Assembly: GCF_000154725.1 (NCBI RefSeq)
Contig: NZ_DS544873.1
Location: 3,695,339-3,759,338, forward strand
DNA length: 64,000 nucleotides
Direction of reading: 5' to 3'
Origin: Kordia algicida OT-1
GTDB lineage: Bacteria; Bacteroidota; Bacteroidia; Flavobacteriales; Flavobacteriaceae
In this document: in pieces, positions 11,977-27,175 of the stretch
Position numbering within the stretch: position 1 is the first letter of the stretch
Layout of the letters: every line of letters begins with the position of its first letter
Position numbers and translations under genes: made by a program
Notes under the pieces: model-generated
What the model saw: the letters and a program-made list of their open reading frames with translations, nothing else
What the model was told of the DNA's origin: nothing
Databases searched by the model: none

Positions 11977-12912
11977 TTACAAATCTCCCTTTTTCGTATT
12001 TTTTGTTCTTTTCATTGCTTCACCAATTTGATTACTTGCGGTAAAACTAGCAACCATGTCATTTAACATGTTACTTCCGGCTTGTGGCGAATTTGGCAAT
12101 AAAATTAAATTACTATTGGTTTCCTGACCAATGGCTTGTAAGGTATCATAATGTTGTGTTACAACGATAAGGGCAGAAGCTTCTTGCGAGTTGATTCCAA
12201 CTTTGTTTAACACTTCTACAGATTCTTCCAAACCACGTGCAATTTCACGACGCTGATCGGCAATACCTTGTCCTTGTAAACGCTTGCTTTCTGCTTCCGC
12301 TTTTGCTTTTTCAACGATTAAAATACGTTGTGCATCACCTTCATATTGTGCAGCAGTTTTTTCTCTATCTGCCGCGTTAATACGGTTCATTGCCGCTTTT
12401 ACTTGTGCATCAGGATCAATATCAGTTACTAAGGTTTTAATGATATCATAACCATATTCCATCATGGCATCATTCAATTCCGTTTTTACAGCAATGGCAA
12501 TATCGTCTTTCTTTACGAATACATCATCCAATTTCATTTTTGGCACTTCGGCACGAACTACGTCAAATACATACGAAGTAATTTGATCGTGTGGATAATC
12601 TAACTTATAAAAAGCATCGTATACTTTGTCTTTAATAACTTTGTATTGAACAGAAACTTTTAAGCGAACAAATACATCATCTAATGTTTTTGTCTCGATA
12701 ATAACGTCTAATTGTTGAATTTTTAAACTGAGTTTTCCAGCAATTCTATCAACTAAAGGAATTTTCATCTGTAATCCTGAGTGACGAATACTTTGAAAGC
12801 GTCCGAAACGTTCAATAATAGCAGCTGTTTGTTGTTTTACGATAAAAAACGATGATAGCAATATGAACAATGCTATAACGCCTAAAACAATGTAAAATGG
12901 ACTGAAAGGCAT
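11977..12912 (-). CDS. SPFH/Band 7 membrane protein (QmcA/stomatin-like)
   Basis: A 311-residue protein with one N-terminal membrane segment (FYIVLGVIALFILLSSFFIV, about 5-24) followed by an SPFH/Band 7 domain: QTAAIIERFGRFQSIRHSGLQMKIPLVD, then IETKTLDDVFVRLKVSVQYKV. A long heptad helix follows (about 175-230, INAADREKTAAQYEGDAQRI onward) that drives oligomerisation. Stomatin and QmcA relatives form large rings that organise membrane microdomains and can control proteases. The usual NfeD partner is not adjacent. It is a monocistronic gene with its own terminator. Family assignment is firm; the specific role is unknown. Confidence 0.92.
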   Translation of the reverse strand: MPFSPFYIVLGVIALFILLSSFFIVKQQTAAIIERFGRFQSIRHSGLQMKIPLVDRIAGKLSLKIQQLDVIIETKTLDDVFVRLKVSVQYKVIKDKVYDAFYKLDYPHDQITSYVFDVVRAEVPKMKLDDVFVKKDDIAIAVKTELNDAMMEYGYDIIKTLVTDIDPDAQVKAAMNRINAADREKTAAQYEGDAQRILIVEKAKAEAESKRLQGQGIADQRREIARGLEESVEVLNKVGINSQEASALIVVTQHYDTLQAIGQETNSNLILLPNSPQAGSNMLNDMVASFTASNQIGEAMKRTKNTKKGDL

Positions 12913-22500: not shown

Positions 22501-23013
22501 GAAGAAGGCGAAAAAGGCAAAGGCGGCAAAGATGGTAAAGACGGAGAAAACGGTCAGCAAGGTGGCGGATCGGGTAGTGGAGACGAAGACGCTTCGGGAA
22601 AATTATACGACATTTACAAGCAACAACAAGCGTTGCGAAATCAACTAGAACAGCAATTAAAAGATAAATACGGAGAAAAAATAAACAATCCACAAGCAAG
22701 AGAATTGCTCAAGCAAATGGAGCAAGTGGAAACTGAATTGCTAGAAAGAGGTTTCAATGATGAAACCATGAAAAAGATGATAGAACTCAAATATCAATTA
22801 CAAAAACTTGACAAAGCTGCCTTCGAACAAGAAAAAGAAAACAAGCGAGAATCTTCTACAAATCGGAAAGATTTCAACAATACTACAAACGAAAAAATTC
22901 CTGATGTGCGACAGTATTTCAATCAAATTGAGATATTAAACAGACAAGTATTACCTTTGCGCAATAATTACAAAAAGAAAGTACAAGAGTATTTCAAAAA
23001 AAAGGATGATTAG
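19588..23013 (+). CDS. DUF4175 family membrane protein with long coiled coil
   Basis: A 1141-residue protein of the Bacteroidota DUF4175 family. Membrane segments lie at about 28-50 (AILFFSIGLLYFIITLLVEHFLWL), 57-77 and 157-175 (YAILPLAIVLFVWISG). Beta-rich extracytoplasmic modules (about 190-480) follow, then a very long Glu/Lys/Gln coiled coil (about 490-780), a helical region, and a Gly/Lys/Gln low-complexity tract (about 915-1010, with GKGGKDGKDG-type repeats), before a final helical domain. The function is unknown; the shape suggests an envelope-spanning structural or ATP-independent assembly factor. The start is placed at ATG 19588 (or 19591); an in-frame TTG at 19558 would add ten residues and is less likely. 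It overlaps ybeY by 8 bp, so the two are translationally coupled. Confidence 0.85.
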   Translation: MMNAYEQIQKKLGQFVTKYYTNELIKGAILFFSIGLLYFIITLLVEHFLWLSTGARTALFWIFIAVELALFAKFIVLPFTKLFKLQKGISFKEASTIIGNHFPEVNDKLLNVLQLSETSQESELLLASIEQKSRELQPIPFQVAINFKKNIKYAKYAILPLAIVLFVWISGNSSLFSSSYERVVNYKTAYEPPAPFQFIVVNDTLQAIENQAFKLQVQTLGDVIPEEVQISLGEETYFLHNKGIGTFEYNFSQPKEATTFTLKANEVTSKPYTLNVVKVPSLVNFQMILDYPAYTKRKDEVLKSTGNATIPEGTTITWEAKAKQTNRLELISTDSTYVFTKEANNFKLAQKIFQKLDYQISISNLELKNYENLGFNINVIKDEYPKMDLQSKRDTVDQRTMYFLGQVSDDYGLKRLQLVYYPAENAAKKTKENIPISASNIDQFQYTFPGNLQLAKGVNYEFYFQLTDNDGLRGGKSVKSEIFNYRKLTDTELETEQLQQQNETIKDLDKSLEKLQKQQDELKKISKEQKEKSELNFNDRKKLEKFLQRQEQNDQMMEKFSKQLQENLEDFQKEETKDDEDKELLKERLERQQKELEKNEKLMEELKKLAEKISEEELQEKLEELGKQQQNSKKNLQQILELTKRYYVTKKAEKIQKELQELAKEQEELSKKSGDQNTKEQQEELNKKFEDLQKQMDELDKENEELRKPLDLERKKDEEEDIKQEQQEATDDLEKSEESQSEQQKSEQQKSAKQKQKKAAQKMQRMSKSMATAMQMSGQQSIQEDAEMLRQILDNLLLFSFDEENLMKNFEEIDNTNASYASRLKRQKELRKMFEHVDDSLFALSLRQPTISEEINKEITEIYFNIDKSLELLAENNVYRGVAAQQYALTSTNKLADFLSGALDNMNQSMGSGKGQGTSGVGQSGQNQGQGKGFQLPDIIQSQEEINKQMKKGQKQEGQGKDGKDGKEGGKEEGEKGKGGKDGKDGENGQQGGGSGSGDEDASGKLYDIYKQQQALRNQLEQQLKDKYGEKINNPQARELLKQMEQVETELLERGFNDETMKKMIELKYQLQKLDKAAFEQEKENKRESSTNRKDFNNTTNEKIPDVRQYFNQIEILNRQVLPLRNNYKKKVQEYFKKKDD

Positions 23014-23428
23014 TTTTCATTATGAGACACAATTTGAACTTCCAAACGAAGCACAAATTGAACAATGGATTGGCAACGTAATTGCTTCAGAAAACAGAAA
23101 AGAAGGAGAAATCAATTATATCTTTTGTGATGATGAATACCTGCATAAACTAAATGTAGAATTCTTAAATCACGATACACTAACTGATATCATTAGTTTC
23201 GACAATTCCCTAGGAAATCAACTCCATGGAGACATTTTTATCTCTGTAGAACGTGTTGCTGACAATGCAAATGATTTTAAAGTTTCCTTCGAAGAAGAAC
23301 TGCGTCGTGTGATGATTCATGGAATATTACATTACTGTGGTTACAAAGACAAAACCGACGAAGATCAAGCTGAAATGACTGCCAAAGAAAATGAAAAACT
23401 CCAAATGTTCCACGTGGAACAATCGTAA
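23006..23428 (+). CDS. ybeY: Endoribonuclease YbeY (16S rRNA maturation)
   Basis: A 140-residue YbeY, a metal-dependent endoribonuclease of 16S rRNA 3'-end maturation and ribosome quality control. The family signature HGILHYCGYKDKTDED is at residues 105-120; H105 and H109 are the first two zinc ligands, but the third ligand position (H-x3-H-x5-H) is Asp115 rather than His. SFDNSLGNQLHGDIFIS is the usual preceding strand. The start ATG at 23006 overlaps the DUF4175 stop. The 3' end of the gene contains a perfect parS-type palindrome, which encodes the tail residues FHVEQ. mnmG follows 54 bp later. Confidence 0.93.
   Translation: MISFHYETQFELPNEAQIEQWIGNVIASENRKEGEINYIFCDDEYLHKLNVEFLNHDTLTDIISFDNSLGNQLHGDIFISVERVADNANDFKVSFEEELRRVMIHGILHYCGYKDKTDEDQAEMTAKENEKLQMFHVEQS
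23406..23421. promoter_or_regulatory. parS: parS-type ParB-binding site 1
   Basis: TGTTCCACGTGGAACA, a perfect 16-bp palindrome fitting the general parS consensus TGTTnCACGTGnAACA. It lies inside the last codons of ybeY. Confidence 0.88.
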
Positions 23429-23482
23429 ATCTCTTGTATAAATTGTTAAAGAAAATAGAATTAGTATTATAATCGTTAAGAT

Positions 23483-25354
23483 ATGTTTAATACGGAATAT
23501 GATGTAATCGTTGTTGGTGCAGGTCATGCAGGTTCAGAAGCCGCCGCCGCCGCCGCAAATATGGGAAGCAAAACTTTGCTTGTTACGATGAACTTACAAA
23601 ACATCGCGCAAATGTCTTGTAATCCCGCTATGGGAGGAATTGCTAAAGGGCAAATTGTACGTGAAATTGATGCACTTGGTGGTTATAGCGGAATAGTTAC
23701 CGATAACTCTGCGATTCAGTTCAAAATGCTCAACAAATCCAAAGGTCCTGCCATGTGGTCACCACGTGCACAAAGCGACCGAATGCGCTTTGCAGAAGAA
23801 TGGCGTTTAATGCTAGAACGAACTGAAAACCTTGATTTTTATCAAGAAATGGTGCGTGGTCTCATTATTGAAAATGAAGAAATAAAAGGTGTAAAAACGT
23901 CTTTAGGATTGGAAATAAGATCCAAAACAGTTGTCTTAACCAACGGAACTTTCTTAAACGGATTGATTCATATTGGAGATAAAAACTTCGGTGGTGGTAG
24001 AGCAGGAGAAAGAGCTGCTACAGGAATTACAGAAGAATTAGTCGAACTTGGTTTTGAATCAGGAAGAATGAAAACAGGAACGCCACCAAGAGTTGATGGA
24101 AGATCGTTAGACTATTCTAAAATGATAATTCAACCAGGTGATGAAGTTCCAGATAAATTTTCCTATCTAAAAGTAACAAAACCGTTAGAAAACCAGCGTG
24201 CGTGTCACATGACATACACGTCTCCAGAAGTGCATAACTTACTGCGAGAAGGTTTTGATAGATCGCCAATGTTCAATGGAAGAATTCAATCTATCGGACC
24301 AAGATATTGTCCTTCTATAGAAGATAAAATCAACCGTTTTGCAGATAAAGATCGTCACCAACTTTTTGTTGAACCAGAAGGTTGGAATACTGTAGAAGTT
24401 TATGTAAATGGATTCTCGACGTCGCTTCCAGAAGATGTTCAATTTAAAGCATTACGTTCGGTGGCTGGTTTTGAAAATGTAAAGTTTTTTAGACCTGGAT
24501 ATGCAATCGAATATGATTACTTTCCACCAACACAATTAAAGCATACGCTAGAAACAAAACTTGTAGAAGGATTGTTTTTTGCGGGACAAATTAACGGAAC
24601 CACAGGTTACGAAGAAGCCGCTTCACAGGGATTAATGGCAGGAATAAATGCTGCATTAAAAGTTCAGGAAAAGGAAGAATTCATCCTAAAAAGAAACGAA
24701 GCTTATATTGGAGTTTTGATTGATGACTTAATTACAAAAGGAACGGAAGAACCTTACCGAATGTTTACTTCGCGTGCAGAATACAGAACGCTACTTCGTC
24801 AAGATAATGCTGATTTTAGATTAACACCTGTTGGTCACAAACTTGGTTTGGCAAGTGACGAACGTTTGCGATCGATGGAAAAAAAGAAGACAAATTCAGA
24901 TGCGTTTATTCAATTCTTTAAAGATACCAGCGTAAAACCTGATGAGATAAATCCGGTTTTAGAAGCAAAGAACTCATCAAAAGTTAAGCAGCAAGATAAG
25001 ATGTTTAAAATCTTTGCGCGTCCAAATATCTCTATGGAAGATATGCGAAAAGTAGCTTCTGTAGAAAACTTTATTCAAGAACATGAACTTGGAAAAGATG
25101 TCTTAGAACAAACGGAAGTTCAGGTTAAATATGCAGGTTATATCAATAAAGAAAAAAGCAATGCTGATAAACTGAACAATCTAGAACGGGTTAAAATCCC
25201 AGCAGATTTTAAGTATGAAGGATTGACAAATCTTTCTATGGAAGCCAGACAAAAATTAGCTAAAATTCGTCCTGTAAATTTATCTCAAGCATCACGAATT
25301 AGTGGTGTTTCTCCAAGTGATATTAGTGTGATGTTGGTTTATTTAAATAGATAA
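23483..25354 (+). CDS. mnmG: tRNA uridine-5-carboxymethylaminomethyl modification enzyme MnmG
   Basis: A 623-residue FAD-dependent enzyme that, with MnmE, makes the 5-carboxymethylaminomethyl group on wobble U34 of several tRNAs. It has the N-terminal dinucleotide fold YDVIVVGAGHAGSEAA (GxGxxG at 12-17), the MSCNPAMGGIAKGQIVRE block, TGTPPRVDGRSLDYSK, GYEEAASQGLMAGINAAL, and the C-terminal helical domain that contacts MnmE and tRNA (LSQASRISGVSPSDI). Length is standard. Flanked by parS-type sites on both sides. In many bacteria this gene (gidA) lies near the replication origin. The tract GCCGCCGCCGCCGC near the start encodes the alanine run. Confidence 0.97.
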   Translation: MFNTEYDVIVVGAGHAGSEAAAAAANMGSKTLLVTMNLQNIAQMSCNPAMGGIAKGQIVREIDALGGYSGIVTDNSAIQFKMLNKSKGPAMWSPRAQSDRMRFAEEWRLMLERTENLDFYQEMVRGLIIENEEIKGVKTSLGLEIRSKTVVLTNGTFLNGLIHIGDKNFGGGRAGERAATGITEELVELGFESGRMKTGTPPRVDGRSLDYSKMIIQPGDEVPDKFSYLKVTKPLENQRACHMTYTSPEVHNLLREGFDRSPMFNGRIQSIGPRYCPSIEDKINRFADKDRHQLFVEPEGWNTVEVYVNGFSTSLPEDVQFKALRSVAGFENVKFFRPGYAIEYDYFPPTQLKHTLETKLVEGLFFAGQINGTTGYEEAASQGLMAGINAALKVQEKEEFILKRNEAYIGVLIDDLITKGTEEPYRMFTSRAEYRTLLRQDNADFRLTPVGHKLGLASDERLRSMEKKKTNSDAFIQFFKDTSVKPDEINPVLEAKNSSKVKQQDKMFKIFARPNISMEDMRKVASVENFIQEHELGKDVLEQTEVQVKYAGYINKEKSNADKLNNLERVKIPADFKYEGLTNLSMEARQKLAKIRPVNLSQASRISGVSPSDISVMLVYLNR

Positions 25355-25363
25355 AATTTCGAG

Positions 25364-25379
25364 TGTTCCACGTGGAACA
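25364..25379. promoter_or_regulatory. parS: parS-type ParB-binding site 2
   Basis: TGTTCCACGTGGAACA, identical to sites 1 and 3, in the 34-bp gap between mnmG and the GNAT gene. Confidence 0.88.
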
Positions 25380-25388
25380 TTTTATAAT

Positions 25389-26243
25389 ATGGAAATAAAA
25401 TCATTACAAGAAACGCCAATTCAAGAAATCTTAACGACATTGAATCTGGCGTTTTCTGATTACTTTGTTCCGATCAATTTTACCGTAGATTATGTCAATG
25501 AACGTTGGACAGCTTCTGGTGTAGATTATAAACTTTCTTTCGGTGCTTTTGATGATGGAAAATTAGTAGGTTTTATCATTCATGCAATAAATTTTTATGG
25601 AGAGACCAAAGTTGCTTATAATGCATCTACAGGAATTATTCCTTCATACAGAAGAAAAGGTTTGTTGACCAAATTGTATGAGAAAGCAATTACGGTTTTA
25701 CAAGAAAACGGAATTCAAAAAAGTACGTTGGAATGTATCACAAAAAATGAACGTGCAATTTTAGCGTACCAAAAAGTGGGTTTTAAAATTGATCGCCAAT
25801 ATCATTTATACAAATTCAATTGGAAGCAAAGAGAAATTCAATCTGAATTTAAAATTAAAGTTGACACAGATTTTTCTTTTGAGAATTTCACACAGTTACA
25901 AAACTATCTTCCTTCTATAGAAAACCAAGATCATTTTTTAGAAAAATACAAAAACAGTTTAAACGTAATTTCAGTTTTTGATAAAAATGAAATAGTCGCA
26001 TATTTGCTTTTTCACAAAATCACAAAAAGAATTCATAGGTTAGGCGTAAAAGAAAATAATTGGAATACTTTTGGTGAAATTTTATTTTCAGGATTGCCGA
26101 CAGGAAATTATAATATTATCAATATTGATTCAAGAAATAAAAATATGCATGATTTTTTTAAAAAAATGAATTTTGATAATTATATCGATCAGTTTGATAT
26201 GAGTTTTGATTTCGAATTCTCTAAATCACAAGATTCAGAATAG
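25389..26243 (+). CDS. GNAT family N-acetyltransferase
   Basis: A 284-residue protein whose first ~150 residues are a GNAT fold: LVGFIIHAINFYG (beta 4), STGIIPSYRRKGLLTKLYEKAI (motif A, acetyl-CoA pyrophosphate loop Y-R-R-K-G-L) and LECITKNERAILAYQKVGFK (motif B). The second half (about 155-284) is a second, weaker GNAT-like unit with LGVKENNWNTFGEIL and MHDFFKKMNFDNYI, so the protein may be a tandem or pseudo-tandem acetyltransferase. The substrate is unknown. It lies in the mnmG run between two parS-type sites. Confidence 0.82.
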   Translation: MEIKSLQETPIQEILTTLNLAFSDYFVPINFTVDYVNERWTASGVDYKLSFGAFDDGKLVGFIIHAINFYGETKVAYNASTGIIPSYRRKGLLTKLYEKAITVLQENGIQKSTLECITKNERAILAYQKVGFKIDRQYHLYKFNWKQREIQSEFKIKVDTDFSFENFTQLQNYLPSIENQDHFLEKYKNSLNVISVFDKNEIVAYLLFHKITKRIHRLGVKENNWNTFGEILFSGLPTGNYNIINIDSRNKNMHDFFKKMNFDNYIDQFDMSFDFEFSKSQDSE

Positions 26244-26283
26244 TTGAGTAAAATCTTCAATTTTAAAAAAGAAAAAAACGTAT

Positions 26284-26299
26284 TGTTCCACGTGGAACA
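26284..26299. promoter_or_regulatory. parS: parS-type ParB-binding site 3
   Basis: TGTTCCACGTGGAACA, third identical copy, in the 86-bp gap between the GNAT gene and the methyltransferase gene. Confidence 0.88.
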
Positions 26300-26329
26300 T
26301 TTTAATAAAAATAGAAAGCAAATATAAAA

Positions 26330-27175
26330 ATGGAGAACATTACGGTAAAAGATCATTCCGTTTCTGGTGAAAAATTCCAATTGGTTTTTGATGAAGTTTT
26401 AGAAATGTACAAAACCGAACCGCAACCAAGTTTGGATAAACTCGCTTCCTATTACGAAAGTGAAGATTATATTTCGCATACAGATGCCAAAAGAAATCTC
26501 TTTGAAAAAATATACCATTGGGTTCGCATATACATGCTTTCTAAAAAAATGTCTTTTGTAGACATGAATACAAAAAGTGACGGAAAAAAAGTGTTGGACA
26601 TTGGTTGTGGAACTGGAGACTTTTTAGCAATGGCTCAAAAATACAAATGGGAGATTGCCGGAGTTGAACCTGATGCTCAAGCACGAAAAATTGCTTCCGA
26701 AAAAACCAATACTGAAATTCATAATAATGATTGGCTTTCTACACTTGAAGACGATTCTTTTGATGCCGTTACCATGTGGCATGTTTTAGAACATGTTCCA
26801 AACTTAGAGGAACAAATAGCGGAATTGAAAAGAATTGTAAAACCCAACGGAACTATTTTTATTGCTGTACCAAACTTCAACTCTCATGATGCAAAACATT
26901 ACAAAGAATTTTGGGCAGCTTATGATGTACCAAGACACTTATGGCATTTCTCTCAAAAAGCAATAAAAGTACTTTTTGAAAAGCAACAAATGAAAGTAGT
27001 AAAAATCTTACCAATGAAATTTGATGCTTATTATGTGAGTTTGCTTTCAGAAAAACACAAAACAGGAAAGATGAATCCGCTAAAAGCATTTTATAGAGGA
27101 TTTGTATCCAATTTTAAAGCAATTACAAGTTCAGAGTATTCTTCATTGATTTACATTATAAAAAATGAAAAATAA
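26330..27175 (+). CDS. Class I SAM-dependent methyltransferase
   Basis: A 281-residue methyltransferase. Motif I is VLDIGCGTGDFL near residues 89-100, followed by the acidic strand end IAGVEPDAQA (motif II), FDAVTMWHVLEHVPNLEEQ (motif post-II with the HVLEHV signature) and LKRIVKPNGTIFIAVPN. The ~80-residue N-terminal extension (KLASYYESEDYISHTDAKRN) is the type seen in methyltransferases of small molecules, lipids or sugars. The substrate is unknown. Its position after mnmG/GNAT and before the OmpH-like gene is an arrangement I associate with Flavobacteria, but that is from memory. Confidence 0.88.
   Translation: MENITVKDHSVSGEKFQLVFDEVLEMYKTEPQPSLDKLASYYESEDYISHTDAKRNLFEKIYHWVRIYMLSKKMSFVDMNTKSDGKKVLDIGCGTGDFLAMAQKYKWEIAGVEPDAQARKIASEKTNTEIHNNDWLSTLEDDSFDAVTMWHVLEHVPNLEEQIAELKRIVKPNGTIFIAVPNFNSHDAKHYKEFWAAYDVPRHLWHFSQKAIKVLFEKQQMKVVKILPMKFDAYYVSLLSEKHKTGKMNPLKAFYRGFVSNFKAITSSEYSSLIYIIKNEK

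Follow-up and report, generated by a model that had tools for sequence, protein, structure and literature searches.

The window analysed here, a stretch of 64,000 nucleotides from the 5,033,129-base single-contig genome of Kordia algicida OT-1 (contig NZ_DS544873.1, positions 3,695,339 to 3,759,338), includes four genes on the forward strand, ybeY, mnmG (gidA), a GNAT acetyltransferase gene and an S-adenosylmethionine (SAM) methyltransferase gene, among which three copies of the palindrome TGTTCCACGTGGAACA are interspersed within 2.9 kb (Table 1). The first-pass annotation of this DNA, made from its letters alone, had described three identical perfect palindromes around mnmG, one embedded in ybeY and two in intergenic gaps, with an exact match to the ParB consensus, and our searches bear out each of these statements.

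Table 1 Genes and candidate parS sites around mnmG, in window coordinates
Feature	Coordinates	Strand	Context	Match
ybeY (endoribonuclease YbeY)	23006..23428	+	last codons carry parS site 1	Pfam PF02130, 106 bits
parS-type site 1	23406..23421		inside ybeY 3' end, encodes MFHVEQ tail, 61 bases before mnmG start	exact match
mnmG (gidA)	23483..25354	+	bracketed by parS-type sites	Pfam PF01134, PF21680, PF13932; TIGR00136
parS-type site 2	25364..25379		9 bases past mnmG stop codon	exact match
GNAT acetyltransferase gene	25389..26243	+	between parS-type sites 2 and 3	Pfam PF00583
parS-type site 3	26284..26299		between GNAT and methyltransferase genes	exact match
SAM methyltransferase gene	26330..27175	+	downstream of mnmG	Pfam PF13489

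When up to three mismatches to TGTTCCACGTGGAACA are allowed, the window still yields the same three sites alone, and 100 shuffled windows gave a mean of 0.26 matches to this sequence, with a maximum of two and none reaching three. A whole-genome search for the 16-mer had been suggested as a check. The pattern TGTTNCACGTGNAACA was found to be not scattered but confined to the three places flanking mnmG, and the reversed control pattern had no match; at two mismatches, two further places appear (2,171,154 and 3,865,875), with one for the reversed control. Because the consensus is matched exactly, by three copies in 5.03 Mb that all lie within 2.9 kb, the three palindromes very probably constitute the chromosomal parS cluster, or centromere, of this Kordia species, located at 3.72 Mb. 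A 2007 study by Livny is said to be a survey of parS sites. By all of the sequence evidence, the locus can be taken as a genuine, well-conserved parS cluster in an unusual genomic context.

Conservation at mnmG and in the ybeY tail

Conservation was assessed on 80 relative mnmG loci, the best 80 of at least 581 confirmed stretches and thus the closest relatives (mostly Flavobacteriaceae by title), with flanks of up to 10 kb; together with the window they make up 81 loci. Exact sites occur in 77 of the 80 relatives, totaling 148 sites, and the other three (L023, L048 and L055) contain copies that are one or two bases off. The 14-base core GTTNCACGTGNAAC is present both upstream (<400 bases) and downstream (<1.6 kb) of mnmG in all 80 loci and nowhere else in them. 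Near-sites such as TCTTCCACGTGAAACA, which lie 5-10 kb downstream in several relatives, were not counted because a fixed consensus base differs.

At the level of the phylum, an exact site is found in 110 of 148 Bacteroidota genomes, compared with two for the reversed control pattern. Distances to mnmG were counted in the 84 of these 110 genomes with listed coordinates, leaving out the other 26: a site lies <2 kb from mnmG in 76 genomes, 24 of which have such sites on both sides, and 132 of the 149 exact sites are <2 kb from the gene, with 115 within 200 bases. The eight exceptions (G013, G024, G029, G033, G049, G063, G071 and G108) have their sites farther away or on another contig. In one relative (G016:C1:1086925) an exact parS falls within the mnmG coding sequence itself. 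In the open-licence literature searched, no link between parS and mnmG in Bacteroidota came to our notice, nor any report of the bracketing of mnmG across the phylum.

Sites that hug both ends of mnmG in 80 of 80 loci might also be expected if the palindromes were a local control element of this gene, either an operator or the hairpin of an intrinsic terminator, rather than a centromere. As RNA, site 2 could form a hairpin of nine pairs (-10.2 kcal/mol, z -2.1), and site 3 contributes two, one per strand, of the three terminator-like matches at 22800-26600, where shuffles give 1.6. Site 1, however, is inside ybeY, and 17 of the 148 exact sites in related loci have a C/A combination that would break a stem pair. 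Moreover, in the eight genomes with no site <2 kb from mnmG, multiple sites stay together away from the gene: pairs are 46, 50 and 38 bases apart in G013, G033 and G049 and 5.5 kb apart in G029, and three sites fall within 6.6 kb in G108. The stem breaks, the copy in ybeY and the sites away from mnmG disfavour a hairpin or terminator, and with a sequence that equals the ParB consensus we consider control of mnmG very unlikely as the function of these sites.

The overlap with ybeY provides a separate view of selection on the presumptive parS sequence. YbeY was found in 77 of the 81 loci, and in 17 of them it ends in FHVE followed by one or two residues: the window, three other Kordia, two Mesonia, one Salegentibacter, five Aquimarina, four Sinomicrobium and one further Flavobacteriaceae. 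In the window, the end codons holding site 1 read ATG TTC CAC GTG GAA CAA TCG TAA. The tails were searched by peptide, so that synonymous changes would be detectable, and in 17 of 17 mutually related tails FHVE is encoded by TTC CAC GTG GAA with zero synonymous variation; in the mnmG genes of the 81 loci, the same residues are encoded by TTC in 15%, CAC in 29%, GTG in 18% and GAA in 73% of cases. Because none of the 17 tails varies synonymously, a constraint on ybeY at the DNA level is supported, given 17 related tails, with the DNA site apparently dictating the last codons of the gene. The first-pass annotation had proposed such selection, which agrees with the invariant codons, and had held that the site forces the residues FHVEQ, which is true of some species and not universal: the tail is FHVEH in others and FHVEY once, and in most relatives the exact site is placed after the ybeY stop codon instead of inside the gene. 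An exact site upstream of mnmG is absent from L023, L025, L048 and L055. Where the overlap exists, the ybeY tail would clearly illustrate how codons can be dictated by a site for DNA binding.

In Aquimarina litoralis (L073), at 101 bases upstream of mnmG, FHVE is still encoded by a site that lacks one base (ending in AATA). The lost base lies just past the FHVE codons, and two intact sites are located between ybeY and mnmG, in what is apparently the decay of a redundant parS.

The closest relatives of the encoded MnmG are from Kordia (94-96% identity). In all 81 loci, the window among them, mnmG is followed on the forward strand by a homologue of the methyltransferase gene, which starts <400 bases from the mnmG end in 50 of the 77 non-Kordia loci and lies across a wider gap in 27. 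By tblastn, the GNAT gene is found in the window and three Kordia loci (L006-L008) and in none of the other 77, and these same three loci are alone among the 80 relatives in having a second exact downstream site, which results in the Kordia order mnmG-parS-GNAT-parS-methyltransferase. Since both features are confined to Kordia loci, site 3 appears to be an additional copy acquired together with a GNAT insertion. L006 contains an additional open reading frame of 204 aa ahead of its third site.

Position of the replication origin and of the partition genes

GC skew was computed from 40 samples of 12-14 kb and analysed with a two-replichore fit, bootstrap and permutations; skew at fourfold sites proved noisy and was not used. 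Cumulative skew has its minimum at ~3.75 Mb and its maximum at ~1.25 Mb, half a chromosome apart, and the fit places the origin at 3.78 Mb (bootstrap 95% interval 3.66-4.26 Mb), with 0 of 5000 permutations as strong. The parS-type cluster lies ~60 kb from this fitted origin, whose interval is wide, and when the origin is fixed at the cluster only 3 of 20000 permutations reach the fit. Both 16S genes (0.665 and 4.614 Mb, forward strand) are directed away from an origin near 3.75 Mb. The broad skew minimum spans the window and locates the origin within a few hundred kilobases, so that it may lie inside the window, where the first-pass annotation had placed none, or outside it. The earlier suggestion of a partition centre near the origin, and the comparison of locus and skew minimum proposed for checking it, are hence in accord with both skew and 16S direction, and proximity of the putative parS cluster to the replication origin is well supported.

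In many bacteria the origin is marked by dnaA, which in this genome lies at 1,863,129, 1.86 Mb from mnmG, and mnmG is <0.1 Mb from dnaA in 10 of the 16 Bacteroidota genomes in which SMC was found (see below). The sites could then be parS in a cluster that is not origin-proximal, with replication starting at dnaA. Against this, the skew statistic has the wrong sign at dnaA (-0.029, vs +0.047 at the parS-type cluster), and an origin at dnaA would make both 16S genes head-on to replication. The portion of PMC10197239 consulted, which draws on parS clusters, GC skew and read coverage, likewise reports that gut bacterial origins do not always coincide with dnaA. Taken together, we find an origin at dnaA highly improbable and favour one near the sites. 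It has already been published, as far as that portion goes, that an origin marked by parS can lie apart from dnaA, and the consulted parts of PMC7203096 and PMC2768785 describe a Blattabacterium origin placed by GC skew where dnaA is absent. Numbering begins at dnaA in three of the seven single-contig genomes of Flavobacteriales (G028, G102 and G117); in Kordia, by the evidence presented here, dnaA is not the origin.

The first-pass annotation had correctly placed parA and parB outside the window. The genome has a single parA-parB pair of chromosomal type at ~2.256-2.258 Mb (parB at 2,256,091), 1.46 Mb from mnmG in the case of parB. Its one TIGR00180 ParB (165.9 bits, 301 aa) has ParB_N, HTH_ParB and ParB_C domains, and the gene directly upstream encodes a ParA of 256 aa (PF13614, 234 bits). 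The protein contains the box GERRFRA, an instance of GERRxRA, the CTP-binding motif of ParB. Residues that contact parS were assigned by motif position, following the Caulobacter numbering in the consulted portion of PMC7383237, and by this assignment the Kordia ParB retains the equivalents of Q162, G170, K171, R173, N178, G201 and R204. According to the same portion of PMC7383237, R173 and G201 are conserved in all extant ParB orthologues and altered in Noc. A ParB over the cut-off was found in 23 of 23 Bacteroidota genomes tested. Both dnaA and parB are far from the skew origin and closer to the presumed terminus at ~1.26 Mb; a dif-like pattern was not found in 120 kb at 1.20-1.32 Mb, a search with a loose pattern that says little.

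Several observations weigh against an origin-proximal centromere at mnmG. The GC skew is weak, with a broad minimum (~3.54-3.82 Mb, in finer bins with unsampled gaps). Skew was also determined from 20 samples in each of four replicate genomes: parS and the skew origin are 32 kb apart in G056 (0 of 2000 permutations) and 110 kb apart in G094 (3 of 2000), and the other two, G117 and G133, gave non-significant distances of 446 kb (267 of 2000) and 498 kb (319 of 2000). A search of 476 kb sampled around the skew minimum revealed no cluster of DnaA boxes; there, relaxed boxes number at most three per 600 bases and perfect TTATCCACA boxes five in all. In addition, 38 of the 148 Bacteroidota genomes are without an exact site, the eight exceptions described above have none <2 kb from mnmG, and the Kordia ParB has K at contact position S172, a position at which other aligned ParBs vary too. 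The sole perfect TTATCCACA of the window, at 12590, has two relaxed boxes within 480 bases and constitutes a weak lead for oriC.

Distribution of SMC and ScpA and the proposed mechanism

SMC was sought with TIGR02168 in 23 single-contig Bacteroidota genomes, scoring at most 19 first-look candidates per genome; Flavobacteriales here denotes the genomes listed under the window's own order. SMC is present in all 16 genomes outside Flavobacteriales, over the cut-off in 15 and as two partial matches of 510 and 446 bits in G029, and in none of the seven Flavobacteriales, whose matches all stay at or below 29 bits. For the K. algicida genome itself, with 19 of 29 first-look candidates scored, the best SMC match had 24 bits across 43 positions, and no ScpA was found among its candidates (three of three scored). 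ScpA (PF02616) was detected in 20 of 31 genomes and not found in 11, comprising all eight Flavobacteriales and three genomes of the same class (G040, G044 and G071); the control Bacteroides ihuae was likewise without a ScpA match. Results for the two proteins are concordant in the 23 genomes tested for both. Because ScpA was not found in G040, G044 and G071 either, the loss of SMC/ScpA is not confined to Flavobacteriales and extends beyond that order. The consulted portion of PMC10197239 states that no known condensin was found in the two Bacteroidetes studied there, which fits our results, although many Bacteroidota in this sample have SMC; we noticed no paper on SMC loss in Flavobacteria in the open-licence literature searched.

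Expressed as a fraction of half the genome, the distance between dnaA and mnmG has a median of 0.67 in the seven SMC-less genomes vs 0.04 in the sixteen SMC-bearing ones (p 0.0002 by a rank test that is uncorrected for relatedness, rests on one clade and uses many rounded genome sizes), yet in G032, G005 and G042 SMC is present and dnaA is far from mnmG. An association between SMC loss and dnaA relocation is thus seen, and a causal link is not shown.

With SMC and ScpA not found and parB 1.46 Mb from mnmG, the sites might be regarded as relics that ParB no longer uses, particularly as SMC is gone. They show no decay, however: the three copies are perfect, the core persists in 80 of 80 loci and the ybeY tails are free of synonymous drift in 17 of 17 cases, while ParB retains its CTP motif and most DNA-contact residues. 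We consider it extremely unlikely that the sites are relics.

We infer a mechanism in which a dimer of the single chromosomal ParB would recognise each 16-bp site, close as a CTP-dependent clamp and spread by sliding outwards across ybeY, mnmG and the genes that follow, after which ParA would pull the origin-proximal ParB-DNA body and newly copied origins would separate. Selection on the DNA site would be strong enough to dictate the last ybeY codons where the two overlap. Since no SMC or ScpA was found, parS probably lacks its other customary role here, the loading of SMC condensin, or an unrecognised complex may take this on, and the sites probably serve ParA-driven segregation instead (ScpB, MukBEF and MksBEF were not searched). 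This proposal builds on what the sequence itself shows: three sites that occur nowhere else in the genome, are conserved at mnmG and lie close to the skew origin, genes for ParA and ParB, and an absence of matches to SMC or ScpA.

A broader scenario can be put forward tentatively. Flavobacteriales may have lost SMC-ScpA and seen dnaA drift, keeping a minimal two- or three-site centromere around mnmG. The origin would then be organised by ParB-parS-ParA, either unaided or together with a condensin of a new kind; the mnmG locus rather than dnaA would be the fixed origin landmark, and the flanking positions would be important in their own right, ParB clamps covering mnmG. Kordia and its relatives would provide a natural setting where ParABS seems to work without SMC-ScpA and the two roles of parS become experimentally separable, and ybeY-mnmG with parS could serve as a landmark for the replication origin in a large bacterial group.

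Comparison with known systems

The Kordia locus resembles ParABS systems of the Spo0J-Soj type (Bacillus subtilis, Caulobacter) in having the same 16-bp palindrome in a few copies close to the origin and a ParA-ParB pair with the GERRxRA box and parS-type specificity residues. It differs from them in the distance of parB and dnaA from the sites (>1.4 Mb), in the lack of any SMC or ScpA match and in having three sites alone, which tightly bracket one gene. Other parallels are the parS clusters of gut Bacteroidetes analysed by Hi-C (PMC10197239), for which the consulted portion of the paper describes an origin marked by parS, GC skew and coverage, separable from dnaA, and no known condensin; the host here is a member of the Flavobacteriaceae rather than a gut Bacteroidetes, and mnmG goes unmentioned in that portion. 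Nucleoid occlusion by Noc likewise combines a ParB-fold CTPase with a 16-bp palindrome, NBS. According to the consulted part of PMC4331003, however, NBS sites are scattered round the chromosome, whereas the Kordia sites are clustered within 2.9 kb, and at the two positions occupied by Q and R in Noc the Kordia ParB carries R and G.

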